Of a DNA stretch of 38,226 nt, positions 19,274 through 34,427 are shown piece after piece. This stretch comes from an uncultured Pelagibacteraceae bacterium (GTDB lineage: Bacteria; Pseudomonadota; Alphaproteobacteria; Pelagibacterales; AG-422-B15), in the NCBI GenBank assembly GCA_902614655.1, contig CACMLX010000001.1:133127-171352 (forward strand). Direction: 5' to 3'. The stretch's first letter is position 1. Every line of letters starts with the position of its first letter. The translations under genes were made by a program, and so were the position numbers. Under the pieces are notes generated by a model, which saw nothing but the letters and a program-made list of their open reading frames with translations, was not told the origin of the DNA and made no database searches.

Positions 19274-20614
19274 ATGAATTTATTCATTAACAGATCAACA
19301 TCATTGTTAATTTCTCTTATGTTTTTTTCAACTATTTCCTTTTCTGCCAACGCCGAAAGACTCTCAGTGATGGTAGAAAGTGTTCTTGAAAAGCATGAAG
19401 ACATAGTTAACGCAAAAAAAGAATTAGAAGAGGCAAATAGAGACGTTACTGATGCCCTGCTTGTTTACGCGCCCGACCTTTCCGTAAAGTGGGAAGGTGG
19501 ACAAAACGACAAATATAATGCTGGTTCACCATCACAGATCGATGGATTTGATACTTATGATTGGACTTGGAAGCAAAAAATAATGGACTCTGGCGCTTCC
19601 ATGGCTGATGTGAGAAATAAGAACCTTGCGGTTGAAAAAAAACAACTTGAGTTGATCACATCACGAAACGATCTTTTAATCGAGGCTGCTGATGCATATC
19701 TTGGATTAATTAAAGCTTCAGAAAAACTTGAGGCCTCCGTTGCTGCTGAAGAAAATACCAGACAAACAACGGGTCAAGAGGAAATTAGAGTTCAGGTAGG
19801 TTCCGGATTAGCTTCTGATGTCTTAAAGGCAAAAAGACAACTTGCTAGTGCACAGAAAACTGTAATCTCTGACGAAAAAAGTTTTAAATCAGCAAAGTAT
19901 ACATATGAAAAACTCTTTAATGTTGATGAAGTAAACCTTAGCGCTTTGACCAAACCACGTCTTGCGGCATCTACATTATCAATGGTTCCCGAGTCAATGG
20001 AAGCAACAGTAGAAATTGCGCTTGCTAATAATAGAGATTTACAAATTGCCAAAATTGATGTCGAAACGGCAAGAAATGATTTAACAAGTGCACTTGCAAA
20101 TTTCGGACCAACAATTGATGCCGAGGCCAAGTATTCTGATAAAAGTGATGCATCACACACTAAAGGAAGTCATTATGAAGAACAGATTAAAGTAACAGTT
20201 GAGTTTCCTATTTCAGGTATTTATATGGAAATGCCTAGTTATTTAAATGATAGGTCTGCTCTTGATCGGGCTATAAATGATCTTGCGTTGAAAGAGCGAG
20301 ATACAATAAAATCAGCTAAAGAGGCTTGGGTTGAATACGCAAATGCAAGAACATTATTGTCATATAGTGAAAATGAGGCAACTATCGCTAAAGAGCTCTT
20401 AACCATTGCTCAAAAGGAAAGGGCTGCTGACCAAACTGACGCAGCTGCGGTTTTGGCTGCAGAAGAAGCATTGGAAAGTTCACTAAAAGATTTATCAGAT
20501 GATAGTATGTCTTTGTTAACCACTGTTTATGAAATTTTAGATGTAATAAACCTTCTTGAACCAGATATGGTAGAAGATACGACTAAACAAGGAACATTTA
20601 ATACTCCGTCTTAA
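19274..20614 (+). CDS. TolC-family outer-membrane efflux/secretion protein
   Basis: A 446-residue outer-membrane channel of the OEP/TolC family, with a signal peptide at residues 1-27 (cleavage after ANA). It shows the internal duplication of the family: long helices around residues 30-75 and 120-215 in the first half and 255-290 and 330-425 in the second, each pair separated by a beta-strand-rich segment ('LSVKWEGGQNDKYNAGSP', and 'IDAEAKYSDKSDASHTKGSH'). TolC proteins form trimeric ducts for type I secretion and drug efflux. Its place directly upstream of a giant secreted protein and its ABC/HlyD exporter points to type I secretion, though it may also serve other pumps. Confidence 0.88.
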   Translation: MNLFINRSTSLLISLMFFSTISFSANAERLSVMVESVLEKHEDIVNAKKELEEANRDVTDALLVYAPDLSVKWEGGQNDKYNAGSPSQIDGFDTYDWTWKQKIMDSGASMADVRNKNLAVEKKQLELITSRNDLLIEAADAYLGLIKASEKLEASVAAEENTRQTTGQEEIRVQVGSGLASDVLKAKRQLASAQKTVISDEKSFKSAKYTYEKLFNVDEVNLSALTKPRLAASTLSMVPESMEATVEIALANNRDLQIAKIDVETARNDLTSALANFGPTIDAEAKYSDKSDASHTKGSHYEEQIKVTVEFPISGIYMEMPSYLNDRSALDRAINDLALKERDTIKSAKEAWVEYANARTLLSYSENEATIAKELLTIAQKERAADQTDAAAVLAAEEALESSLKDLSDDSMSLLTTVYEILDVINLLEPDMVEDTTKQGTFNTPS

Positions 20615-20618
20615 ACAA

Positions 20619-20624
20619 TATAAT
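20619..20624 (+). promoter_or_regulatory. Possible -10 element before the giant gene
   Basis: A perfect TATAAT just after the tolC-like stop, with only TTTAAT at 20597-20602 as -35. It could give the giant gene its own transcript; weak evidence. The ribosome-binding site AGAAAGGA (20653-20660) is well placed for the ATG at 20669. Confidence 0.3.
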
Positions 20625-20668
20625 TTAGTGAGTTTATTACTGTTACAATTTTAGAAAGGAATAAATAA

Positions 20669-23600
20669 ATGCCAGTAACGCCAGCAGAAGCACAAGAATT
20701 TTTTCAAGAGGTTGCCGCCGCGGGCTCCCCTGAAGAACAACAGGCATTGATTCAAAATTATGCGGCTAATAATGATAATCCTGACGAAATGTTGGCAGCA
20801 GTCGTACAAGCTAATCCTGCCGCCGCTCAACAAATAGCAACTGTTACAGCACAAGCTATCCCAGAGCAAGCCGCAGAAATTGCTGGAGCAATTGCCGCAG
20901 CTGCTCCTGCCGCAGCAAATGCTACAGCTGCTGCAATGGCTGCCGCTGTACCAGATATTGCAGAGGATGTTGCTTCTGATGTTGTTCAAAATGCACCAGC
21001 TGCTGCTGGCGCTGTAGCTACATCTTTAACACAAATTAATCCAGAAGGTGCCGCTGAAATGGCTGCAGCAATTGCTGAAGTTGCTCCTGCAGCTGCGGGC
21101 GCTGTTGCAACAGCTGTTGCACAAGCTGCACCTGAACATGCTGTGGATGCCGCTGCATCAATGGCTGCTGCAAACCCTGCTGCTGCAAGTGGAGCTGCAA
21201 GCGCTGTAGCTGCTGCTGATCCTGAAGCTGCTTCTCAAGTCGCGACTGCCATGGCTCAGGCCGCACCTGAAGCTGCTGCCGCTGTTGCTGCCGGAGTTGC
21301 ATCTGGTGTTGCGCAAGCTGCTGTTGCGGAAGTTAATCAAGAAACTGCACAGGCAAACGCTGAAGTCCAAGCCGACGCGCAAGCTCAAGTTGCTGAAACT
21401 GGTCAAGAGGGCCTTGCTGATATCCAAGCTGATTTACAAGAAACGCTATTAGAAAATAATCAAGCAGGTCAAGAGGCTGCACTTGAGGCATCACAAGCTG
21501 CAACACAAGAAATTATTGCAGAGATGATTGAAATGAATCCTGATGCTGCAGCAGAAATTATTGCAGGAACAGCTGCATCGAACCCAGATGCTGCTGCGGA
21601 AATGGTTCAAGAAATGATGGCATCAAATCCTGAAGGAGCCGTTGAATTATGTGCTGATATAGCTGAGGCAAATCCAGCTGCCGCTGCACTTGCGACAGAA
21701 GCAATTATTGAAGCAGCTCCTGAACAAGCTATTGAAGCAACTGCCGCTATGGCTGAAGTTGCACCAGCTGCTGCAGGAGCCGCTGCTGAAGTTATGGCTG
21801 AGTTAGCACCTGATCAAGCAGGGGAAGCTGCTATGGCTATGCAGGAAGCTGCACCTGAAGCTGCCGCTGCAATTGCTGGTGGTGTGGCACAAGGTAATCC
21901 TGAAGTTGCTGCAGAAGTAGCTACAGAAATGGCTGCTGCTGATCCAGAAGCTGCAGCTGATATTGCAACAGGTGTTGCTGTTGCTGCACAAGCAAATGCC
22001 GCTCAAGAAATTGCCGCTGCTCAGGTTGAAGCGCAAGCACAAGTTGCCGATGCAACAGCAGACTTGCAGGTTGATTTAACATCTGACGATCCAAACGTAG
22101 TAGCTCAAGCTCAAGCTGCAATAGCTGAGGTACAAGATGCTGCTCAAGAAATAATTGCTGAAGCGCAAGGTGCTGCAGCAGAAGTCGCACAAGAATTAGC
22201 TGGCGATATTGCTGGCGCAATGATGGAGGCCAATCCTGAAGCAATTGGAGATATTGCTGAACAAATCGCTGAATCAGCTCCTGGAGCTGCTGAAGGAGTT
22301 ATGGGAGCAATTGCAGAAGTTGCACCAGAACAAGCAGTTGAAGCAGCTGCTACTATGGCTGATGCCAATCCAGTAACCGCAGGCGCTGCTGTTGGAGTAG
22401 TGAGTGAAGCGTTACCTGAACTGGCTACCGAGGCTGCCGTTGCTATGGCTGAAGCTGCACCAAGCGCTGCTGCAAATATTGCTGCAACCGTTGCTCAAGC
22501 CAATCCGGAAGCCGCAACGGAAATTGCAAGTGAAATGGCAGCTGTTGCTGCTGGAAATGAAAATTTTTCTCAAGATGAAGCATTAGCTATGCAAACAGCA
22601 ATTGCAACCCAAGTTGCAAGTGCAGCTCCTGAAGCTGCAGCAGAAGTTGCTGGAGCAATGGTTGATGCAATGACGGCTGTTGACGGCAATGCAAGCGAAG
22701 GTGCTCTTGCAGAAGCAGCTGCTGCAATGACAGCAAACGTTGCATCCGCTGCAACTCAAGCCGCTCCTGAGCAAGCAGCTCAACTTGCAGATACAATGAT
22801 GGAGCAAATGTCAGAGATTCCTGGTATTGAAATTGATACCCTTGCTGAAACAGGAGCTAATATGACTTCATCAATGGCTACCGCAGCTGTGCAGGCAAAC
22901 CCAGAAGCCGCAGCTGAAATTGTTGGTGATATGATGACAGCAATGGAAGTTGTTCAAGAAGCTGATGGTTTCTCTGAACTAAGTGATATTTCAAGAAATT
23001 TTGATATGGGAGAGCAGATGGCTCAGATGGCAACAAACATAGCCACTCAAGCTGCTGCAGCGTCACCGGAAATTGCTGCTGAAGTAGCTGGGGCAATGAT
23101 GGAACAAATGGCTGAAATATCTGGCGCTCCTGCAGATTTTGATCCTGCAGAACAAATGGCTGAAATGACAGCGAACATTGCAACAGCTGTTGCGGCTGCT
23201 GATCCTGAAGCTGCTGGAGAAATTGCAGGCCAGATGATGGAACAAATGGCTGACATACCAGGTGTATCGCCGGAAGATATGGCAGACTTCAATGCAGACA
23301 TGGCAGCACAAGTCGCTCAAGTTGCACCTGAAACTGCCGGAGAAGTATTGGGAGCAATGGCTGCCGCTGATCCAGGCGCTGCCGCTGAACTAGCAACTGC
23401 AATGGCAGAAGCAAACCCTGCTGCAGCTGGTGAAGCGATGGCGGGTCTTGCTGAAGCTGCACCTGAACTTGTTGCAGATGTGGCCGGAGCTGTTGCCGAA
23501 GCTGCACCAGAATTATCAGGAGCACTGGCTGCTGGAGTTGCATCGGGTAACCCAGAGGTTGCCGCTGAAGCCGCTCTTGCATTAGCAGAGGCAAACCCAG

Positions 23601-26600
23601 ACGCTGCGGCACAAATTGCTGCAAGCACTGCTGCTGCAAATCCAGAATTTGCTGCTGAAGTAACAGCTGCAATGGCTGATGCCAACCCTGACGCTGCAGC
23701 TGACATGGCTGCTGCTGTAGCCCAATTTGCACCTGATGCTGCTGCATCCGTTGCATCTGAACTTATTTCTAATGACCCTGAAGCTGCGGGTGAACTTGCA
23801 GCTGCAATGGCCGAAGCAAATCCAGCTGCTGCTGGAGATATTGCAGGTGCATTGATGGAGTCTGCACCTGAACAAGCTGTGGCTGCTGCTGCGGCGATGG
23901 CCGAGGCTAGTCCTGCCGCTGCTGCATCTGCGGCGCAAGGTATGGCTGCTGTTGTGGCCGACTCAGGACTCTTTGATGGTGGAAACGCCGACATAGCAAC
24001 TCAAGCTGCTGCTGCGATGGCAGAAGCCGCACCAGAAGTTGCTGCTTCGGTTGCTGCAGGTATTGCAAGTGGTAACCCTGAAATGGCTGCCGATGTTGCT
24101 GTTGCAATGGCAGAAGCTGCACCTGATGCCGCTTCCGCAATCGCAGGTGGAATGGCAAGAAGCGCACCTGATGCTGTTGGTGATGTTATCGGAGCAATGG
24201 CCGATGCCAATCCAGACGCTTTAAATGATATTGCAACAGGAGTTGCACAAATTGCACCGGCTGCCGCTGGTGATGCAATGGCTGCTGTTGTTGATGCAAA
24301 CCCTGAAGCTGCAGTTGCTGCTGCAACTGCAATGGCTGCTGCTAACCCTGCAGCCGCTCAAGATATTACTGCAGCAATAATAGAAGTTGATCCTGCTGCT
24401 GCTGCAGATACCGCTGCAGCGTTAGCGGAAGCTGTACCTCAAGCTGCTGGAATGATTGCTGCAGGTGTTGCAGAGGCTGCACCTGAAGCTGCTGCGGATG
24501 TGGCTGGCTCGCTTGCTGAAGCCAATCCTGCCGCTGCTGCATTAATCGCTACTTCTGTCGCTCAGGCTGCACCAGAACTTGCTGGAGATATTGCCGCCGA
24601 TATGGCCGCTGTTAATCCAGAAGCCATGGCAGGTGCTGTAGCAAATATTGCTGCGACTGTTGCTGCTGCAGATCCAGACTTGGCTGCTGATATTGCTGGA
24701 GAGATGGCTGCGATTAATCCTAATGCCGCTGGAGCAATTGCAAATGTTGTTTCAGCTCAAGCTCCGGAAGCTGCTGCTGAAGCTGCTGCCGCACTGATAC
24801 AAGCTAATCCAGATGCCGCTGGAGCAATTGCCGCAGGTGTTGCCGCTCAAGCACCAGAAGCAGCTGCTGATGCAGCTACTGCACTGGTTGAAGCTAATCC
24901 TGATGCCGCTGCTGCAATTGTAGGTGGAATGGCAAATGCAAATCCAGACGCTGTTGCTGATGTTGCTGGAGCTATGATGGAAGCCGCTCCTGACGCTGCC
25001 GCTGCTATGGCTGGCGCTGTGGCTCAAGCCGCTCCTGAAATGGCAGGAGATATGGCTGCTGCTATTGCCGAGAGTAATCCTGAACTAGCCGTTGAGGCTG
25101 CTGCTGCTATGGCTGAGGCCAACCCTGCTGCCGCACAAATGGCTGCAGAAGGAATGATGGAAGCCGCACCTGAGCTTGCTGCTGATGCAGCAAATGCGAT
25201 GGCTGCTGCTGCGCCTGAAGCTGCTGCTGATATCGCAGGTGGAATGGCAATGGCGAATCCTGAAGCTGCTGCTGATATTGCTGGTGCAATGGTTGCAGCT
25301 AACCCTGAAATTGCAGGCGATATTGCAACTGGTGTTGCGATGGCCGCTCCTGTTGCAATGGAAAATGTTGCAAATACTTTAATAGAAGCAAATCCTGAAG
25401 CGACAGCTACGATGGCCGCTGTTCTTGCGGAAACTGCACCTGGAGCTGCTGACAATATGATGAGCTCCGTTGCTGAATTGAACCCGGATGCTGCATTAGC
25501 CGTTGCTGGTGCAATGGCTGAAGCAAACCCAATGGCTGCTGAGGGTACTGCTGGAGCAATAGCTGATGCATTGCCTAATATTGCTGCTGATGCTGCGGGC
25601 GCAATGGCTGCCGCTAACCCAGACGTTGCTGGAGATATTGCTGTAGGAATGGCTGGAGCAAATCCAGAAATTGCTGGAGATATTGCTGGGGCTATGATGG
25701 ATGCTGCTCCTGAGGCCGCTCAAGGAATTGCTCAAGGAATTGCCACTGCTGCACCTGATCAAGCTGCAGATGTTGCTGGTGCGATGGCTGAAGCAAATCC
25801 AGAATTTGCTGGAGATATTGCTGGCGGTATGGCCGCTGGTGACCCAGGACAAGCCGCTGAAATAGCAACAGCTATGGCTGCTGCAAATCCAGAAGCCGCA
25901 GCTGATATAGCTGGTGGTGTAGCAGAGTTTGCACCAAGTGCTGCAGGAGACGTTGCCGGCGCTATGGTTGAAGCTAATCCAGATGCAGCAACAGATATGG
26001 CCGCTGCAATGGCTGAAGCAAATCCAATTGCCGCAGGGGCTGCAATGGGAGCAATGGCAGAAGCCGCTCCTGAGATTGCAGCAGACGCTGCAAGCGCAAT
26101 GGTCGCTGCAAATCCAGATGCTGCAGGTTTAGCAGCGCAAAGTTTAGCAGACGCTGCTCCTGAATTAGTAGCTGAAGCTGCAACCGCAATGATGGATGCT
26201 GCACCTGATGCAGCTGGTGCGATTGCTGGTGGAGTTGCAAGAGGTGATGCTGATATTGCCGCTCAAGTTGCAACAGATATGGTTAATGCCAATCCAGAAT
26301 TAATGGGAGATATTGCAGGAGGCGTTGCACAAATGGCTCCTGGTGCTGCTGGTGATGTAGCCGGCGCGATGGTTGAAGCAAATCCAGATGGTGCTGCTGA
26401 CATGGCCGCCGCTGTTGCCGAAAATGTTCCTGGAGCTGCTGGTGCTGTGGCTGGCGCAATTGCAGAAGCTGATCCAGCTCTAGCTGCTGAAGCTGCTGGT
26501 GCGATGATGGAAGCTAATCCAGCTGCTGCCTCTGCAGCTGCTGCAGGTATGGCAAATGCTGCTCCTGAAGTTGCAGGCGATGTTGCTGGCGCAATGATGG

Positions 26601-29545
26601 ACGTCGCAATGGCGCCTGATTTTGCTGCTGATTTTGCTGAAAATGCAGCTACTGCAAATCCAGATTTGAGCCCAGAACAACTAGATGCATTAGTAGATAA
26701 CTTTGCGGGTAATGCTGTTGGAGCAATTGCTCAAGGAATGGCAGCTGGTGACCCTGATATAGCAGGTGATATGGCTGGCATCATGATGGATGCTGCTATG
26801 GCTAATCCTGAGATGGCTGAAAATTTTGTAGGCGAGATTGCAGGTGGTATGGCCGCAGGTGCTCCACAACAAGCAGGTGAAATTGCTGTTGGAATGATGG
26901 AGGCAAATCCAGACATGGCTGGAGATATTGCTGGTGGAGCCGCTTCTGGAAATCCTCAAGTTGCAGCAGGTGTTGCAATGGAAATGGTTGGAGCAGATCC
27001 GAGTTTAGTTAATGATATTGCTGGTGGAGTTGCTGAAATGGCACCTGCCACAGCCGGTGGAGTTGTTGGCGCAATGGTTGCTGATAATCCTGATGTTGCT
27101 GCTGGTGTAATTGATGCAGCAATGACAGCAAATCCAGCCGCTGCTGGCGCTGTTGCTGGAGGAGTTTTAGCGGCTGTTCCTGATGGAGAGGCTGCTGTTG
27201 GAATTATGCAAGAAGTTGCTGCCGCTAATCCAGATGCAGCCGGAGCTTTTGCAGGTGGAATGGCGCAAGCCAACCCTGCTGCAGCAGGCGAAATAGCCGG
27301 TAGCCTTGCAGCTATTGATCCAGCACTTGCTGGAGATATGGCAGGAGCTATGGCAACCGCTAACCCAGCTGCTGCAACTTTAGTTGCTGCAGGTGTTGCT
27401 GAACTCGCACCTGATGCCGTGGGCGCAATTGCGGGCTCTATGGCAGATGCAAACCCTGCTATTGCAGGACAAGTTGCTGCAGGTATGGCCCAATTTGATC
27501 CTGGTGCGGCTGCACAGTTTGCGGGTGATTTAGTTGCCGCTAATCCTGAAATGGCTGCAAATATTGCAAGTGGAATGGCACAGCTAGCTACACAAGGTGG
27601 TATGGCAGATCTTGCTGGAGAGTTTATGGGCCAAATGGCTGCTGCAAACCCTGAGATGGCTGGAATGATGGCTGCTGGTATGACACAAATGATGGGTAAT
27701 CAAGGCGCAGCATTCATGGCAGATATGGGTGACGTAATGGGAGCTGATATGGCTGCACAATTACAAGCTGATATGCAAACTCAAATGGCTGACATGCAAT
27801 CAATGATGCAAAATGCTATGCAAGGTGGAGAAATGTTCATGGGACCAATGATGACTGCAGACATGATGGGCCCAGCAGACTTTGGTGGTATGATGGATAT
27901 GGATATGGGTATGCTCCCTGGTATGGATATGGGCATGGGGCCAATGATGGGACCTATGGATCCAATGATGGGCATGATGGGACCTATGGACCCTATGATG
28001 GGTATGGGACCTATGATGGGACCAGATCCAATGATGATGGGCATGGACCCTATGATGATGGGAATGCCTGGACCTATGATGGGACCGGATCCAATGATGA
28101 TGGGTGGTATGCCTGGAATGGGACCTATGATGGGACCAGATCCAATGATGCAACTGGGTATGGACATGGGTATGGACCCAATGATGATGATGACTGATCC
28201 AATGGCGGCAATGAATATGGGTATGGACATGATGATGAATGACCCTGCCATGATGCAAATGGGGATGGATTTCTTTGGCGGCCCTGAAAATATGATGAAT
28301 GAAATGATGATGGGCATGAACGATATGATGATGAGCGGTATGCCTGGAATGGGTCCTATGATGGGACCAGATCCAATGATGGGTGGTATGCCTGGAATGG
28401 GACCTATGATGGGACCAGCAATGCCTATGGGCCCTATGGATTATGGGCCTATGCCTGGAATGGGACCAATGATAGATCCAATGACTGGCGCAATGATGCC
28501 TGGAATGCCAATGGATACGCAAATGGGCTTAGATATGTTAGTTGCGCAGGGAATGGACCCTGCAATGGCTACTCAGCTTGGAATGATGGATGACCCATTT
28601 GGAATGATGCCTATGCCTGGAATGGGTCCAATGGTAGATCCAATGTCTGGTGCAATGATGCCTATGCCTGGAATGGGACCAATGATAGATCCAATGACTG
28701 GCGTTCCAACAATGAGTGGATTTAATGCGGGAATGGAAGGCATGGATCCTATGAATCCAATGAATCCAATGAACCCAATGAATCCAATGGCGCCTTTGTA
28801 TGATCCCTCAGTAATGAACATGGTTGAAGGTATGGGGTTTGAGTTTGGACCATTGGATCCAATGAACCCGATGAATCCAATGGGACCAGAAATGCCTATG
28901 GGACCAGGAATGCCAATGGCACCAATGGGACCAGAAGTGCCAATGGGACCAGGAATGCCTATGGGACCAGAAATTCCAATGGGACCAGCAATGCCTATGG
29001 GGCCAGAAATGCCAATGGGACCAGCAGAACCTATGCAAGGAAGTGATCCTGCTGAGGCTATTAATTTTGCAGGAATTTTGTTTAACGGTATTCAATATGA
29101 GGCAGGACCTGCGGGATGGTATTTATATCAAGCCGCGCTAATGAATCCTGGAGCTCCACCACCGGGACCAGGCTTACCAATGGTTCATGAGTCAACACCT
29201 GATCAGGATTTCTTTAACGGTTCTCCTGGACAACCAGATACTTTTGTATTCACACTCGGTCAAGGACCAGGAGCTGGGACATCCGATGAATCTGCCATCG
29301 CTGCGAACATGCCTGCTGCTGATAATATAGTGAATTTTTCCAGAGGTGATGGTGACAAAATCAAGTTGTATGATGTTGATGGTGTGACTCTAATTTCAGA
29401 TCCAATTACCATTAATGCAACTCTTGGCGCCACATCCATGGGTGGAATGACAGCTGTCTATAAACTTGGAACAAGTGAGGTTGTATTCACTAGTAACAGT
29501 GCTGACATTATATCATTATCAGACGCTGACTTCACCATAGTTTAG
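20669..29545 (+). CDS. Giant Ala-rich repeat protein with Met-rich region and type I secretion-like C-terminus
   Basis: A 2958-residue protein with no signal peptide, expected to leave the cell by type I secretion. Four parts are visible. Residues 1-34 are a short acidic N-terminus. Residues about 35-2340 are Ala-rich repeats with a 15-residue period, roughly A-N/A-P-E/D-x-A-A-x-I-A-x-x-M-A-E; Asn/Ala-Pro-Glu looks like a helix start, so each unit should be one short helix. Gln/Glu-rich, coiled-coil-like breaks occur near 214-290 and 436-510, and Met-rich 'MMEQMAEI' units near 715-870. Residues 2389-2789 are about 35 percent Met, the rest mostly Pro, Gly, Asp. Residues 2790-2958 end in 'PDTFVFTLGQG', 'NIVNFSRGDGDKIKLYD' and a hydrophobic tail 'SDADFTIV', as in RTX/serralysin-type secretion domains. 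There are no GGxGxD calcium repeats. I saw one Cys (328). Surface adhesin or filament is a guess. Confidence 0.88.
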   Translation: MPVTPAEAQEFFQEVAAAGSPEEQQALIQNYAANNDNPDEMLAAVVQANPAAAQQIATVTAQAIPEQAAEIAGAIAAAAPAAANATAAAMAAAVPDIAEDVASDVVQNAPAAAGAVATSLTQINPEGAAEMAAAIAEVAPAAAGAVATAVAQAAPEHAVDAAASMAAANPAAASGAASAVAAADPEAASQVATAMAQAAPEAAAAVAAGVASGVAQAAVAEVNQETAQANAEVQADAQAQVAETGQEGLADIQADLQETLLENNQAGQEAALEASQAATQEIIAEMIEMNPDAAAEIIAGTAASNPDAAAEMVQEMMASNPEGAVELCADIAEANPAAAALATEAIIEAAPEQAIEATAAMAEVAPAAAGAAAEVMAELAPDQAGEAAMAMQEAAPEAAAAIAGGVAQGNPEVAAEVATEMAAADPEAAADIATGVAVAAQANAAQEIAAAQVEAQAQVADATADLQVDLTSDDPNVVAQAQAAIAEVQDAAQEIIAEAQGAAAEVAQELAGDIAGAMMEANPEAIGDIAEQIAESAPGAAEGVMGAIAEVAPEQAVEAAATMADANPVTAGAAVGVVSEALPELATEAAVAMAEAAPSAAANIAATVAQANPEAATEIASEMAAVAAGNENFSQDEALAMQTAIATQVASAAPEAAAEVAGAMVDAMTAVDGNASEGALAEAAAAMTANVASAATQAAPEQAAQLADTMMEQMSEIPGIEIDTLAETGANMTSSMATAAVQANPEAAAEIVGDMMTAMEVVQEADGFSELSDISRNFDMGEQMAQMATNIATQAAAASPEIAAEVAGAMMEQMAEISGAPADFDPAEQMAEMTANIATAVAAADPEAAGEIAGQMMEQMADIPGVSPEDMADFNADMAAQVAQVAPETAGEVLGAMAAADPGAAAELATAMAEANPAAAGEAMAGLAEAAPELVADVAGAVAEAAPELSGALAAGVASGNPEVAAEAALALAEANPDAAAQIAASTAAANPEFAAEVTAAMADANPDAAADMAAAVAQFAPDAAASVASELISNDPEAAGELAAAMAEANPAAAGDIAGALMESAPEQAVAAAAAMAEASPAAAASAAQGMAAVVADSGLFDGGNADIATQAAAAMAEAAPEVAASVAAGIASGNPEMAADVAVAMAEAAPDAASAIAGGMARSAPDAVGDVIGAMADANPDALNDIATGVAQIAPAAAGDAMAAVVDANPEAAVAAATAMAAANPAAAQDITAAIIEVDPAAAADTAAALAEAVPQAAGMIAAGVAEAAPEAAADVAGSLAEANPAAAALIATSVAQAAPELAGDIAADMAAVNPEAMAGAVANIAATVAAADPDLAADIAGEMAAINPNAAGAIANVVSAQAPEAAAEAAAALIQANPDAAGAIAAGVAAQAPEAAADAATALVEANPDAAAAIVGGMANANPDAVADVAGAMMEAAPDAAAAMAGAVAQAAPEMAGDMAAAIAESNPELAVEAAAAMAEANPAAAQMAAEGMMEAAPELAADAANAMAAAAPEAAADIAGGMAMANPEAAADIAGAMVAANPEIAGDIATGVAMAAPVAMENVANTLIEANPEATATMAAVLAETAPGAADNMMSSVAELNPDAALAVAGAMAEANPMAAEGTAGAIADALPNIAADAAGAMAAANPDVAGDIAVGMAGANPEIAGDIAGAMMDAAPEAAQGIAQGIATAAPDQAADVAGAMAEANPEFAGDIAGGMAAGDPGQAAEIATAMAAANPEAAADIAGGVAEFAPSAAGDVAGAMVEANPDAATDMAAAMAEANPIAAGAAMGAMAEAAPEIAADAASAMVAANPDAAGLAAQSLADAAPELVAEAATAMMDAAPDAAGAIAGGVARGDADIAAQVATDMVNANPELMGDIAGGVAQMAPGAAGDVAGAMVEANPDGAADMAAAVAENVPGAAGAVAGAIAEADPALAAEAAGAMMEANPAAASAAAAGMANAAPEVAGDVAGAMMDVAMAPDFAADFAENAATANPDLSPEQLDALVDNFAGNAVGAIAQGMAAGDPDIAGDMAGIMMDAAMANPEMAENFVGEIAGGMAAGAPQQAGEIAVGMMEANPDMAGDIAGGAASGNPQVAAGVAMEMVGADPSLVNDIAGGVAEMAPATAGGVVGAMVADNPDVAAGVIDAAMTANPAAAGAVAGGVLAAVPDGEAAVGIMQEVAAANPDAAGAFAGGMAQANPAAAGEIAGSLAAIDPALAGDMAGAMATANPAAATLVAAGVAELAPDAVGAIAGSMADANPAIAGQVAAGMAQFDPGAAAQFAGDLVAANPEMAANIASGMAQLATQGGMADLAGEFMGQMAAANPEMAGMMAAGMTQMMGNQGAAFMADMGDVMGADMAAQLQADMQTQMADMQSMMQNAMQGGEMFMGPMMTADMMGPADFGGMMDMDMGMLPGMDMGMGPMMGPMDPMMGMMGPMDPMMGMGPMMGPDPMMMGMDPMMMGMPGPMMGPDPMMMGGMPGMGPMMGPDPMMQLGMDMGMDPMMMMTDPMAAMNMGMDMMMNDPAMMQMGMDFFGGPENMMNEMMMGMNDMMMSGMPGMGPMMGPDPMMGGMPGMGPMMGPAMPMGPMDYGPMPGMGPMIDPMTGAMMPGMPMDTQMGLDMLVAQGMDPAMATQLGMMDDPFGMMPMPGMGPMVDPMSGAMMPMPGMGPMIDPMTGVPTMSGFNAGMEGMDPMNPMNPMNPMNPMAPLYDPSVMNMVEGMGFEFGPLDPMNPMNPMGPEMPMGPGMPMAPMGPEVPMGPGMPMGPEIPMGPAMPMGPEMPMGPAEPMQGSDPAEAINFAGILFNGIQYEAGPAGWYLYQAALMNPGAPPPGPGLPMVHESTPDQDFFNGSPGQPDTFVFTLGQGPGAGTSDESAIAANMPAADNIVNFSRGDGDKIKLYDVDGVTLISDPITINATLGATSMGGMTAVYKLGTSEVVFTSNSADIISLSDADFTIV
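20771..27688 (+). repeat. Tandem array of about 45-base / 15-residue Ala-rich units
   Basis: Successive units such as 'ANPDAAAQIAASTAA', 'ANPEFAAEVTAAMAD' and 'ANPDAAADMAAAVAQ' (around 23590-23730) are each exactly 15 residues, giving on the order of 140 copies. Third codon positions vary among GCT, GCA, GCC and GCG, so the units are protein-level repeats diverged at DNA level rather than a fresh tandem expansion. The region is visibly richer in GC than its neighbours because of the alanine codons. Confidence 0.9.
27836..29035 (+). repeat. Met/Pro/Gly low-complexity region with near-identical DNA repeats
   Basis: A unit beginning GGACCTATGATGGGACCAGA recurs almost unchanged at 28007, 28070, 28121, 28352 and 28400. 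Another, CCTGGAATGGGACCAATGAT, recurs near 28454, 28617 (one base different) and 28667. NPM triplets are repeated at about 28750-28790. Unlike the Ala repeats upstream, these are close to identical in DNA, which suggests more recent slippage or duplication. Confidence 0.85.
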
Positions 29546-29565
29546 GTAATTGCCTCTTTCTTAAG

Positions 29566-29591
29566 CTATGGTTTTCATTACAGTTCCATAG
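29566..29591 (+). other. Small hairpin between the giant gene and its exporter
   Basis: CTATGG (29566-29571) can pair with CCATAG (29586-29591) around a 14-base loop. No T-run follows, so it is not an intrinsic terminator; it could be a processing or stability element. Low certainty. Confidence 0.3.
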
Positions 29592-29606
29592 TAAGGTCTG
29601 CTCGGT

Positions 29607-31253
29607 ATGCTGTTCGTTTTTAAAAAAATATATATAAATCGATTACTCTTTTTTAAGATATTGTTTGCTTCATTTTTAGTAAACATTCTTGCGCTCGCTA
29701 CACCAATATACGTTATACAAGTCCTGCAGAGATACATTGCCTATGGAGTCTTTTCTACACTTGTAACCCTATTTTGTGGAATAGTTTTTATAGTTATTTT
29801 TGAATTTTTTTTCAAAAATATACGGCATCGTATGGCTAGACAATACGAGTTAGAAAATATTATTTTTACAAATCAAGTTTTGAATAAATTTGTTACTATT
29901 AAATCTCAAATATATGAATTATCAAATAAATTTCGAATTGATATCATCAACCATCATTTAGGAAATATTCAAAACACTTTCTCAGCAAGCAACATAATTT
30001 CAATTTTAGACGTACCTTTCACCATCGTTTTTCTAATTGCTCTTTTTTTAATACACTATCAATTAGGACTAATTACTATTTTCTTTCTGGGACTTCCATT
30101 TGTAATTAATAAATTTATAAATGCTCGATTAAACAGTTTATCAAAGGTTGCTATTTTAGATAATAATAATTCGTACAAACTTTTTGAAAATGTTCTAACA
30201 AGAAATATTACGATTAAATACTTTAAGATTATTAATTTGATTAATAAGTCATGGAATTTGATTGCTAATAAGATGGCAAACACAAAAGAAAACCTTGAGT
30301 CAGAAAAAAATATTTTAAGTTCTTTGTCTGGCTTAACAGCATCACTTTTGACAGTTTTTATTATTGGTTGGGGAGCCACTTTAGCAGTAGCAGGAGAAAT
30401 ATCTGTTGGAGCTTTGATTGGTGCAAATATATTAGCCGCAAGAGCTCTGATGCCCATAAATCGTTATTTATTACTTCAAGAAAATCTATCAAAAATGGAA
30501 GACTCGTATCGAGAGTTAACTCAATATTCTAAATTTGCCTCAGAAAAAACTGAGGGTAGACAGTTATCAGAATTAAAGGGTGAGATAAAGGTCAAAGATG
30601 CATATTTTCAATATCCGGATCAAAAAAATCCAATTTTTGAAGCCTTAAGTTTTGAGGTGGTTCCTGGTCAGATAACAGTAATTATAGGATATAATGGATC
30701 AGGTAAAACTACTCTTATCAAATCGCTTGTAGGAATTCTGGATTTTACAAGAGGAAATTTTTTTCTTGATAATGTTGAAGTTTCACAGCTCTATGAAAAA
30801 TGGTATAGAGAAAAAATTATTTACTCGCCGCAAGAACCACAATTTATAGATGGCTCTATCAGGGACAACATTATTGGTGAAAACAAAATAGATCAAGAGA
30901 ACTTAGTTAAGATATTAAAGGAAGTAGATCTCATCAATTTCATTAACAGCGAACAAAATGGAATAAATAAACAATTAGATAATAGGGGGGAACAATTGCC
31001 TTTAGGCATAAGAAAAAGAATGTCCTTAGCAAGAGCTTTGATTAATGATGGGACATTGGCATATCTAGATGAACCTACGGAAGGATTAGATAAGGAAGGA
31101 AAAAAAGCTGTTTTAGATATTATAAAAAGGCTTAAAGTACAAAAAAAAACCATATTAATTGCATCAAATGACCAAGAAATTATTAATTCTGCAAATATAC
31201 TTATTGATTTAAACTCAAAACCAAAGCCTATAATAGTAAAGCAAAAGAATTGA
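29607..31253 (+). CDS. Type I secretion ABC exporter (PrtD-like) with degenerate ATPase motifs
   Basis: Inner-membrane exporter, 548 residues, with a transmembrane domain fused to an ATPase as in PrtD/HlyB, without an N-terminal C39 peptidase. Membrane segments lie at about 15-40, 50-72, 132-152, 155-172, 245-265 and 270-290. Walker A is GYNGSGKTT (361-369), the Q-loop is 'YSPQEPQFIDGSIRDNI', and Walker B is 'LAYLDEP' with Asp488 and Glu489. Two motifs are unusual: the signature reads LPLGI (464-468) instead of LSGGQ, and the H-loop position holds Asn521 ('TILIASNDQE') instead of His. It starts 61 bases after the giant gene and is followed after 4 bases by hlyD, so it is very likely the giant protein's exporter. 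Confidence 0.9.
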   Translation: MLFVFKKIYINRLLFFKILFASFLVNILALATPIYVIQVLQRYIAYGVFSTLVTLFCGIVFIVIFEFFFKNIRHRMARQYELENIIFTNQVLNKFVTIKSQIYELSNKFRIDIINHHLGNIQNTFSASNIISILDVPFTIVFLIALFLIHYQLGLITIFFLGLPFVINKFINARLNSLSKVAILDNNNSYKLFENVLTRNITIKYFKIINLINKSWNLIANKMANTKENLESEKNILSSLSGLTASLLTVFIIGWGATLAVAGEISVGALIGANILAARALMPINRYLLLQENLSKMEDSYRELTQYSKFASEKTEGRQLSELKGEIKVKDAYFQYPDQKNPIFEALSFEVVPGQITVIIGYNGSGKTTLIKSLVGILDFTRGNFFLDNVEVSQLYEKWYREKIIYSPQEPQFIDGSIRDNIIGENKIDQENLVKILKEVDLINFINSEQNGINKQLDNRGEQLPLGIRKRMSLARALINDGTLAYLDEPTEGLDKEGKKAVLDIIKRLKVQKKTILIASNDQEIINSANILIDLNSKPKPIIVKQKN

Positions 31254-31257
31254 CAAA

Positions 31258-32463
31258 ATGAATAAAAATTTAAATGAGAAATACGAAAAAACTACTAACT
31301 TATTATTTTATAGTTTTTCAGGCTTTCTATTAACCTTAATTATTTGGGCATTTGTATTTCAAATAGATATTGTTAGTAATGCTGAAGGTCAAGTCATACC
31401 TGTAGGAGAGATAAAGACGATTCAACACTTAGAAGGAGGCATTATTGAAAAAATATTAGTCAAGGAAAGTGAATATGTTGAAATAGGCCAGCCTCTAGTA
31501 GTTCTTGCGGCGACAGCAAGTGAAGTTGATGTAGAAGAGTTGCAGGTAAGAATGGATACTCAAATTATAAAATCAATAAGATTAGAGTCTGAAATAAACA
31601 ATTTTGATATTCCAATTTTTCCAGAAGAATTATCATCTAAAAGAGAAAAGATAATTAATAAGTCAATGGAATTGTTTTTAAGTCGCCAAAAAACATTCAA
31701 TGGCAACCTAAAAGAAATTGATACATTAGCAGGTAAGGCTCAAACAGATGTAGATATCCTGTTAAGACAAGCTGAAATGAGTCAACAATTAATGGAAGAG
31801 CAGGTTACGTCTGAGTTTGCTCACCTCAATATTCTTAAGGAGCTTAATAATGCAAAGGGAGTTCTTGAGGAAACAATTGAGAAGAGAGAGAACTATATTA
31901 ATGAATTTATTGAGGAAGCTCGTAATGAACTTCAAATCGCGCAACGAGAGCTTTCTCAATCTGAAGAGACTATGAAAAAATTAAGAGATAGCTTGAACAG
32001 AACCACTATTACCGCACCAGTGGATGGAGTTGTTAAAAATTTATTTTTTGTGACAGAGGGCGGAGTAATACAGCCTGGTGGCTCTATTTTAGATTTGGTA
32101 CCTACAAAAGACAGTTTAATTGTTGAGGCAAGATTGCCTAATAGTGATATTGGGTTTGTAAAAATAAACCAAGAAGCTGTTGTTAAGCTCTCTTCGGCTG
32201 ACTCAGTTAATTTTGGACAAATTAATGGACGTGTAATTCAAATCAGCCCTGATACTGAGGAAGATGAGAATGACAAGAGGATTGTTTTTTATAAGATCCT
32301 TGTTGAAACAGACCAAAACTTCTTTGAGAGCAAAAATAGAGTTTATCAATTAGTGCCTGGTGTCAAGGTTGTTGCTAGCATTCAAATAGGGCAAAGAACA
32401 GTTGCAAATTACCTGCTTTCTCCATTTATGGATACAATGGATCAAACATTTCAAGAAAGGTAA
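31258..32463 (+). CDS. HlyD-family membrane-fusion protein
   Basis: Periplasmic adaptor (401 residues) linking the ABC exporter to a TolC-type channel in type I secretion. An N-terminal cytoplasmic tail is followed by one membrane segment (about 16-36). The first half-lipoyl block is 'GEIKTIQHLEGGIIEKILVK' (50-69), the helical hairpin is about 95-255 with many Glu, Lys and Gln, and the second half-lipoyl block is 'TITAPVDGVVKNLFFVTEGG'. The C-terminal beta domain ends near 'YQLVPGVKVVASIQIGQRTV', the usual HlyD ending. It starts 4 bases after the exporter stop. Confidence 0.94.
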   Translation: MNKNLNEKYEKTTNLLFYSFSGFLLTLIIWAFVFQIDIVSNAEGQVIPVGEIKTIQHLEGGIIEKILVKESEYVEIGQPLVVLAATASEVDVEELQVRMDTQIIKSIRLESEINNFDIPIFPEELSSKREKIINKSMELFLSRQKTFNGNLKEIDTLAGKAQTDVDILLRQAEMSQQLMEEQVTSEFAHLNILKELNNAKGVLEETIEKRENYINEFIEEARNELQIAQRELSQSEETMKKLRDSLNRTTITAPVDGVVKNLFFVTEGGVIQPGGSILDLVPTKDSLIVEARLPNSDIGFVKINQEAVVKLSSADSVNFGQINGRVIQISPDTEEDENDKRIVFYKILVETDQNFFESKNRVYQLVPGVKVVASIQIGQRTVANYLLSPFMDTMDQTFQER

Positions 32464-32505
32464 AAATAATCTATCATTTACGTGATATCATTGTATGATG
32501 TTGTC

Positions 32506-33441
32506 ATGTACCGTACTGCTCTCATATCTTCTTTATTAGTTATTTTTGTCTGTTCATCAATTGCTCATGCAGATGATAGATTGGATCAAATAATACAGAA
32601 TAAAATTACATCTGGTCTTACTAATTTAGGAAATAAAATTGCAGAGTCTATTCCTGGAGAAGGCGATACCGAATTTACAATCTCAGAGCAAGATAATTAT
32701 GATATTAAATTTTCAATTCTAGCCGTTCGTCCAATACTAAAAAACCCATATAGTGGATTAAATAATGAGCATTTATATTTTACTCAATTTCGATTAAGCA
32801 GTCATGAGCCATTTGCCAATGGAGATGAAAGAACCTTATTAAATGCAGGTATCGGCTTCAGAACTCTTGTAAATAACAACAATGCCATATTAGGCGCAAA
32901 CTTATTCCATGACTATGAATTTGACGAAGGGCATCAGAGAGGAAGCATGGGAATTGAATACCTTGCCAATAATTTTCAGTTATATGCAAATATTTATGAC
33001 AGATTGTCTGAAAAAGTTAGTTATACAGTAGGTTCGTCTAACGTTTATGAGGAAGTGTTGAATGGATATGAATTTTCTGTTGTTGGATCTTTACCTTACC
33101 TACCATGGGCAAACGTTATATATAATGGTTATAGCTGGGACAAATCAGGTGCAGACATAGAGGGTGATAAAATTTCTTTAGAAGCTCAAATTATTAATGG
33201 AGTATTATTTGAATATGGTAAAAATGATATTGAGAACAGCTCTGACGATGAAGATTTCTATAAGATCACGTTTAAATGGCCGAGAGATCATTTATCGCCA
33301 ACGCTCGTATCTCATGGAATAACTGAATATGCATTTCCAAAATATAATATGAAAAATGAAATGCTCCATAAAGTTAGAAGAACAAACAATATTATAACTG
33401 AAAAAAATATGGGAGGAGTTTATATAGCTAGATCACAATGA
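32506..33441 (+). CDS. Inverse-autotransporter-type outer-membrane beta-barrel without passenger
   Basis: Starting at ATG 32506 gives 311 residues with a clean signal peptide ending AHA; an upstream in-frame GTG at 32482 would add eight residues and neither start has a good ribosome-binding site. The mature part resembles the beta-domain of intimin/invasin (IAT): 'LYFTQFRLSSHEPFANGDER', 'LNAGIGFRTLVNNNNAILGA', 'NLFHDYEFDEGHQRGSMGIE' and 'YLANNFQLYANIYDRLSEK', with alternating strands and the N-D-x-x-L-G-A-N-x-F-x-D-Y pattern. Proteins of this family normally continue into Ig-like passenger domains; here only about 40 residues follow. It could anchor or receive the giant protein at the surface. 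It overlaps the next gene by 4 bases (ATGA). Confidence 0.82.
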   Translation: MYRTALISSLLVIFVCSSIAHADDRLDQIIQNKITSGLTNLGNKIAESIPGEGDTEFTISEQDNYDIKFSILAVRPILKNPYSGLNNEHLYFTQFRLSSHEPFANGDERTLLNAGIGFRTLVNNNNAILGANLFHDYEFDEGHQRGSMGIEYLANNFQLYANIYDRLSEKVSYTVGSSNVYEEVLNGYEFSVVGSLPYLPWANVIYNGYSWDKSGADIEGDKISLEAQIINGVLFEYGKNDIENSSDDEDFYKITFKWPRDHLSPTLVSHGITEYAFPKYNMKNEMLHKVRRTNNIITEKNMGGVYIARSQ

Positions 33442-34427
33442 TTGATATAAATAAATTTTTTTACATATTTTGTTTTGCTATTTTTTTCGCCAATAACTCT
33501 TTTTCCGCTCAATTTGAGTTCGATCAAGGTGATCCAACCATTTTTAAAGTAAAGCCAATGAACATGCAATTATGTGAGGATTGGGATCGCTCTACAGGGG
33601 AGTGTGTCGGTGACAATACTTATACTATTACAAAGACATTAACAGCTGATGATGGAAGGTGCGATATTGCTGGAGTTGCACCAAATGCAATTGCTTGTAA
33701 CTATGGTTCATTTAATAATCCAAAGCTTCCATCAGGTGTGACTTATACGTACATAAGAACAGAATTATCAAGATCAATGTGGTTAGAGGGAACTGTAACA
33801 AATACAAATGATCCAAGTGTTTCTGGCGTTTCCCAGTGTCATACTGATGGTAGCCATACACAGGCAAATAATTCACAAAATGCTGAGGGTAATACTGCGA
33901 GTGATTTTACACCTACCCTTCAAAAATTTAATTTTGTTAATGGTCCAGGAAATGAAGCTACGATTGCTTCAGGGCTTGATAATGGCACAAAAACAACTGC
34001 GAACACCAATGCGAATTACTTCACTACTTGTATAAATGATCTTAATGCACAAGCTTGTTATTGGAACACAGTTCCATCGCTGGTAACTCAGGGCGCAACA
34101 CATTTTGGATTGGCTATAGATGGTAATGCGGGAACTGCAAACTGGTTATCCAAAGATTATTATATGCATACACCGTATTACGCGTCGACAGAACATATTT
34201 GGATGAGTGATCTCGATGAGGCTGATACAACTTTAGTATTAATGTATGTACTTGAGACTCCATATTTAACTAAACCAGGGATTACCCCTACACTTAAGAT
34301 GTCTTTTTCTGTGAAAGATGCTTTAGATGCTGATTTTTTTATATCAGAGGTAGCAGGGAAAGAGGATGTTGCCTCTTGTGCTTTGTATGTTGGCTCTCCA
34401 GGTGTTTCAATGTCTCTTTTTGATTAA
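33438..34427 (+). CDS. Exported cysteine-containing protein of unknown function
   Basis: A 329-residue protein I do not recognise. It has a signal peptide at residues 1-24 (hydrophobic core FFYIFCFAIFFA, cleavage after FSA) and a mature part that looks beta-rich, with many Thr, Asn and Asp. Eight cysteines in the mature part, several in 'C-x(n)-C' pairs ('LCEDWDRSTGEC', 'RCDIAGVAPNAIAC', 'CINDLNAQAC'), suggest disulfides outside the cytoplasm. Its ATG overlaps the stop of the beta-barrel gene, so the two are translationally coupled and the product probably works with the barrel or the giant secreted protein at the cell surface. No lipobox is visible. Confidence 0.75.
   Translation: MIDINKFFYIFCFAIFFANNSFSAQFEFDQGDPTIFKVKPMNMQLCEDWDRSTGECVGDNTYTITKTLTADDGRCDIAGVAPNAIACNYGSFNNPKLPSGVTYTYIRTELSRSMWLEGTVTNTNDPSVSGVSQCHTDGSHTQANNSQNAEGNTASDFTPTLQKFNFVNGPGNEATIASGLDNGTKTTANTNANYFTTCINDLNAQACYWNTVPSLVTQGATHFGLAIDGNAGTANWLSKDYYMHTPYYASTEHIWMSDLDEADTTLVLMYVLETPYLTKPGITPTLKMSFSVKDALDADFFISEVAGKEDVASCALYVGSPGVSMSLFD

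Follow-up and report, generated by a model that had tools for sequence, protein, structure and literature searches.

Gene content of the locus

The stretch of DNA analysed here, hereafter the window, comprises 38,226 nucleotides (positions 133,127 to 171,352 of contig CACMLX010000001.1, forward strand) from an uncultured Pelagibacteraceae bacterium, whose 1.08 Mb assembly consists of 26 contigs and is 83% complete. It contains six genes encoding a TolC-like channel, a giant secretion substrate, an ATP-binding cassette (ABC) exporter, an HlyD-type adaptor, an inverse-autotransporter-type beta-barrel and an exported cysteine-containing protein, hereafter the partner. An initial annotation made from the sequence had placed these genes together on one strand, and all six open reading frames (ORFs) were found to be open. 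The gene identities it had proposed were recovered by Pfam, in which OEP, ABC_tran with ABC_membrane, HlyD_3 and IAT_beta were matched, the partner being without a match. The genes and their parts are listed below.

19274..20614, + strand: TolC-like outer-membrane channel (Pfam OEP, 4.2e-34)
20669..29545, + strand: giant type I substrate, 2958 residues, about 284 kDa (full-length relatives of 3058 residues in genome G036 and 3176 in G022)
20813..27586, + strand: Ala-rich repeats of 15 residues, interspersed with less regular stretches, a predicted alpha-solenoid with one helix per repeat
27602..29047, + strand: Met/Gly/Pro/Asp block of the giant, residues 2312-2793, with 159 Met in 482 residues (33%)
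29096..29545, + strand: putative C-terminal export tail, the last 150 residues of the giant, co-varying with the ABC exporter
29607..31253, + strand: ABC exporter of the type I LssB/PrtD kind (ABC_tran 1.7e-23, ABC_membrane 1.6e-9)
31258..32463, + strand: HlyD-type adaptor (HlyD_3 4.4e-16; TIGR01843 319 bits, cut-off 208.65)
32482..33441, + strand: inverse-autotransporter-type barrel without passenger (Pfam IAT_beta 1.1e-29, 104 bits)
33367..33438, + strand: conserved barrel tail, a V-R/K-R-x-N motif, about 15 residues and the stop (similar tails in 68 barrels, by eye)
33438..34427, + strand: exported Cys-containing partner, 329 residues, unnamed family (profile-profile homology to partners in other Alphaproteobacteria)

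On balance, the six genes appear to form two independent modules, namely the TolC-giant-ABC-HlyD genes (module 1) and the barrel with its partner (module 2). The initial annotation had instead proposed that the barrel is where the giant is anchored or received after export, a view in which the barrel acts with the Cys-protein at the surface and the six genes form one machine. This is now highly improbable, as the pair was found to occur without giant and exporter, an outcome that the initial annotation had itself named as refuting. Among the 30 type I loci in which HlyD and the next gene are visible, the pair stands behind HlyD in 9 (four of these, in G031, G032, G017 and G033, entered through a partner match, so that five belong to the 26 ABC-found loci), whereas the other 21 offer a positive view of the junction without it. 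An obligate six-gene machine is refuted by these 21 loci. In a sister genus, the pair was present in 3 of 5 genomes and the ABC exporter in 0 of 5 (E<=1e-40), and the giant was not found there either. Partners of type A, observed in 18 of the 53 genomes of the family, lie behind HlyD in nine cases, elsewhere in eight and before the kinase-like gene in one (G052), where the HlyD position falls beyond the contig end. Furthermore, four genomes (G020, G026, G039 and G043) carry a type I locus without the pair and a type A pair at a separate site, and G046, which is 100% complete, has the ABC exporter and no type A partner. The barrel and partner of G031 are 90% and 94% identical to those of the window and stand beside an HlyD of only 63% identity, while close HlyD relatives (89%) in G042 and G045 lack the pair; in G036, HlyD is 89% identical and barrel and partner 73% and 44%. 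What speaks for a single machine is the common strand, the short gaps and the shared slot, together with the nine loci in which the pair directly follows HlyD. No mutual dependence of giant and barrel was seen in the genomes, and the side-by-side placement of the two modules looks incidental.

The two genomes with the whole type I locus, G036 and G022, share the order ilvD-TolC-giant-ABC-HlyD-kinase-like-nucleotidyltransferase-like-aprA, where aprA was named by eye and the kinase-like and nucleotidyltransferase-like genes from weak matches. In G036, but not in G022, the pair is inserted between HlyD and the kinase-like gene. In G050 (L094) and G032 (L106), an opposite-strand gene of 612 residues follows the pair in place of the kinase-like gene, and the locus may occupy another site. 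A promoter and terminator scan of the region remained at chance level (36 against 32.1 and 16 against 14.2).

The barrel and its partner

The barrel is assigned to the type Ve kind by its IAT_beta match, which aligns barrel residues 35-302 with profile positions 23-279 and reaches into the tail. By sequence, the invasin/intimin barrels 4e1t (1.1e-5) and 4e1s (0.0058) were retrieved from the PDB, with the barrel part covered and the tail not. The GTG start at 32482 is probably unused, the ATG at 32506 opening a normal-looking signal sequence (by eye). In intimin, the segment after the barrel leads the passenger out. Here, the same-chain C-terminal passenger of type Ve proteins is missing: the window barrel stops about 15 residues after the linker motif, and in the family none is present on 56 of the 57 barrels whose neighbour is visible (open frame of at most 370 residues). 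Hence, the barrel resembles type Ve proteins such as intimin, invasin, YeeJ and FdeC by its IAT_beta domain and its linker-like tail, but it differs from them by this general lack of a passenger and by a fixed, separate partner gene. To our knowledge, inverse autotransporters have been described as one-chain systems.

In the family, PF11924 gave 58 matches in 40 of the 53 genomes, all of which were examined, and one runs off its contig. Every one of the 57 barrels with a visible neighbour has a recognised partner downstream on the same strand, recognition meaning a match to any of four profiles at E<=1e-3, with some partners being rows of these profiles. The initial annotation had coupled the two genes by an ATGA overlap, which does join the barrel stop to the partner start, and these counts argue that they belong together. 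The gap between them lies between -11 and +14 nucleotides in 56 cases and reaches 139 nucleotides in one, a frame-broken copy in G035. This G035 pair (L093:4160-6189), with a short barrel and a partner in two pieces, may reflect decay or an assembly error. The window genome holds two further pairs (C1:34425 and C9:12820), neither of which adjoins an exporter. The second pair (L002:1390-3138) immediately follows a gene that looks rhodopsin-like by eye, and type B pairs resembling it are present in many relatives; the third (L003:246-2073, minus strand) immediately follows a rho-like gene (by eye). In G031 and G044, pairs adjoin a gene similar to this rho-like gene.

Beyond the family, PF11924 was matched in 45 of the 385 genomes of a class sample, many of the matches lying in long frames. 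Among the short-frame loci, ten have an exported-looking gene directly downstream, which served as a profile row, and L135 is cut by the contig end. The order of G265 yielded 47 matches, two of which are profile sources and were left out; 38 of the remaining 45 barrels have a recognised partner (27 of 28 and 11 of 17). The pair (L121) is also present in G265 itself, a one-contig genome of 2753527 bases. At L263:2080-4230 of the same order, an inverse-autotransporter barrel lies behind an OmpA-like N-terminal stretch (by eye), and the gene next to it was not recognised as a partner. The order of G352 contributed three profile sources; apart from these, a partner accompanies L210, L211 gave only a weak match, L212 and L216 belong to a single gene with a broken frame, and no partner match was obtained for the longer frames L213-L215. 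In a phylum sample, a weak partner match was observed at L188, barrels of other classes are mostly in long frames (at least 471 residues, save broken or contig-end pieces), and 0 of the 21 barrel loci fetched from these classes gave a partner match at E<=1e-3. A class-wide search with partner profile A7, by which A5-type partners are missed, returned 9 matches in 8 of the 385 genomes, 8 of them profile rows; all stand beside barrels and no orphan partner was met. In viral contigs, none of the 8 pattern matches was related to this profile.

The partner itself has no Pfam family above cut-off, no NCBIfam family and no PDB relative at E<=1. A Hia_Tpr_ring_dom match in one partner, at 13.9 bits against a cut-off of 27, was set aside. 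By eye, the window partner carries its own signal sequence and many partners end with a G/P motif followed by a strand-like segment. Partner types were linked by hhalign (A2-A5 98%, A3-A4 100%, A6-A3 98%, A5-A4 92%), and the homology of type A and type B partners depends on the A2-A5 and A5-A4 links. Distances between barrels were correlated with those between partners (Mantel 0.59, p 0.001, 68 pairs; type A alone 0.41, p 0.008, 15 pairs), in a set that leaves out short or cut pairs and L220, L232, L233, L239 and L242. Taken together, barrel and partner make up an inverse-autotransporter unit of two genes that recurs in Alphaproteobacteria and whose partner family is unnamed. No account of the pair or of the giant was found in the literature on inverse autotransporters or on HIMB59/SAR11 secretion, most subscription papers being outside the scope of this search.

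The giant and its exporter

Module 1 contains the three components of a type I system, with HlyD above its NCBIfam cut-off and the ABC and TolC-like proteins below theirs. The TolC-like channel reached 117 bits with TIGR01844 (cut-off 225), and its orthologues lie immediately upstream of the giant in G036 (84% identity) and G022 (74%). The best NCBIfam matches of the ABC exporter were TIGR03375 and TIGR01842, both under cut-off; its LssB match starts at profile position 144, the N-terminal part of the LssB family being missing. Relatives of this exporter were found in 26 of the 53 family genomes (E<=1e-40). The giant is linked to these genes and has no N-terminal signal sequence (by eye). No family of Pfam or NCBIfam was matched by the tail of the window giant, and export tail matches were obtained in 8 of the 53 family genomes. 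The tails of the G022 and G050 relatives contain RTX repeats, and that of G050 also Peptidase_M10_C. These repeats and the co-variation of tail and ABC exporter point to a C-terminal signal, and they support the initial annotation, which took the type I system to be complete and the giant to be its substrate.

When the three full-length giants were compared in blocks of 300 residues, identity was 0.79-0.98 as far as residue 2700 and only 0.32-0.51 in the final part; past residue 2800 it amounts to 0.33-0.47, and that of the ABC exporters of the same genomes to 0.49-0.70. Distances between the last 150 residues of the ORF upstream of the ABC gene and those between the ABC exporters were correlated in 22 genomes (Mantel rho 0.63, p 0.001), one of 23 being dropped because neighbour genes were missing and relatedness being left in by the Mantel test. 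The rho was 0.52 between tail and HlyD (no permutation), and no co-variation was found between tail and kinase-like neighbour (0.05) or aprA (0.13); given the neighbour, the partial Mantel value for tail and ABC exporter remained 0.63. In 18 of the 20 loci of one set, the contig stops within the ORF upstream of the ABC gene. Since tail and ABC exporter co-vary while the body stays, the export tail and the exporter look to have been exchanged together with the body kept. HlyD is not always coupled to them, as in G026 it is 84% identical to that of the window and the ABC exporter 48%.

The giant is highly acidic, with 393 D+E, 7 K+R and a single Cys. Self-identity peaks occur at lags of 15, 30, 45, 60 and 75 residues. 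When residues 1335-1634 were modelled alone with AlphaFold2, an all-helical structure was obtained in which each repeat forms a single helix of 11-14 residues (20 helices in all), at a mean predicted local distance difference test score (pLDDT) of 84.7, and the body is therefore predicted to be an alpha-solenoid. Compared with the PDB, this slice retrieved generic solenoids only (best E 3.2e-3, none at E<=0.001). The initial description as a giant Ala-repeat protein holds for the repeats, but these make up only part of the giant, since residues 2312-2793 form the block of 33% Met. Related blocks contain 38.6-39.3% Met in G036, G022 and a partial copy in G030, and the literature on methionine-rich or low-complexity secreted proteins yielded nothing on this giant. 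A Pfam XPC-binding match, of which no stretch passed on its own, was taken as compositional, and four-fold-site figures, biased by Ala codon use, were set aside. GC content is about 50-54% across the giant (window positions 21001-29000) and 31-39% around it, with Ala/Gly/Pro codons as the probable source. Matches to the first 244 residues were found in 15 of the 297 sampled genomes of the order, all within the genus of the window.

Type I systems with giant substrates include SiiE, LapA-like RTX adhesins and RsaA. The present system resembles them by its ABC/HlyD/TolC machinery, its C-terminal signal and a very long, acidic and repetitive substrate that lacks a signal sequence. It differs from them by predicted single-helix 15-residue repeats in place of Ig-like beta domains and by its Met block of 33-39%. 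It also differs by the lack of a LapG-type protease (PF06035), found in 0 of the 53 family genomes with a positive control in Caulobacter, and Lap-type retention of the giant was rejected on this ground.

Proposed functions and alternatives

The reading favoured here, with moderate confidence, is that of two independent surface modules placed in the same chromosomal slot. A bolder reading, held at rather less than even probability, is that of a two-component type V system, recurrent in Alphaproteobacteria, in which an intimin-type barrel takes a separate disulfide-bonded partner to the surface, next to a giant of near-constant body whose tail is swapped together with the exporter as one cassette. 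The TolC-ABC-HlyD proteins would export the giant, C-terminal tail first, to form a long surface or released polymer. Barrel and partner would both be exported by Sec, and the barrel would be inserted in the outer membrane. By analogy with intimin, its conserved tail may run to the surface, where the barrel might hold or carry the partner as a separate subunit; such carriage or display at the surface seems the most likely function of the barrel. The partner proved less conserved than the barrel in most comparisons (type A, 98 of 105; type B, 138 of 202), and this faster change fits a surface-exposed subunit.

Several observations weigh against the favoured reading. The partner did not change faster in the other 64 of the 202 type B comparisons, and the direct comparison of type A and type B partners (A2-A3) reached just 25%. 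The AlphaFold2 model of the partner is poor (pLDDT 45.7) and Foldseek found no fold match (best E 0.48). Barrels without a recognised partner were met in 7 of the 45 cases in the order of G265 (L232, with an exported-looking neighbour, L263, L269, L272, L273, L274 and L278), as well as in the barrel-only loci L134 and L144 of the class sample. In G044, the barrel (L259:1642-3174) bears two Big_12 Ig-like domains and yet has a downstream partner. Most of the genomes compared are incomplete, single absences thus carrying little weight, and the solenoid is extrapolated from one 300-residue slice of the giant.

Rather than being displayed, the partner could act as a periplasmic accessory (a plug, an assembly factor or a gate) to a barrel that is a small channel or structural protein, with nothing secreted. 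This agrees with the many barrels without passenger, with the coexistence of passenger and partner in G044 and with the barrel-only Int/Inv proteins of 417-497 residues recorded in PMC3008723. However, the tendency of the partner to change faster than the barrel would be unusual for an internal assembly factor, and the conserved barrel tail resembles the passenger-leading segment of intimin-like proteins, which renders this explanation somewhat unlikely. Gene fission, by which the partner would descend from a passenger that became a chain of its own and joins up with the barrel tail again, is less likely still. It would account for the barrel stop soon after the linker motif and for the overlapping or abutting start of the partner, and it has been proposed that Yfr4 and Ahy1, in whose operons the barrel gene precedes genes proposed to supply or extend the passenger, have parts of the passenger on separate chains (PMC3008723). 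Nevertheless, no fused barrel-partner was found among the longer-barrel loci scanned with partner profiles (ORFs of at least 100 residues, in loci extending about 1.5 kb beyond the barrel match, so that long frames are cut). Moreover, the partner has its own signal sequence, and the joint presence of passenger and partner in G044 shows that such a barrel can still bear a passenger and that the partner is more than a passenger set free, which favours an accompanying subunit over a simple split.

With regard to known systems, the two-component unit resembles the Yfr4 and Ahy1 operons in having a barrel gene followed by downstream genes, but the followers described in PMC3008723 resemble passenger repeat domains, whereas here a single unnamed Cys-containing family is found. 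It shares with two-partner secretion (type Vb) a barrel and a separately encoded exported partner. Unlike in type Vb, the barrel matches IAT_beta and not the Omp85/TpsB family, and no two-partner secretion (TPS) domain was recognised in Pfam scans of the barrel and the partners.

The giant illustrates a joint divergence of a type I substrate tail and its exporter, and it leads one to ask why about 300 Met residues are invested by a streamlined cell in a single protein predicted to be exported. A recurrent barrel-partner unit in streamlined marine genomes, three pairs of which are present in a 1.08 Mb assembly, would broaden the range of type V secretion and would offer a candidate for the surface layer of cells that face phages and grazers.

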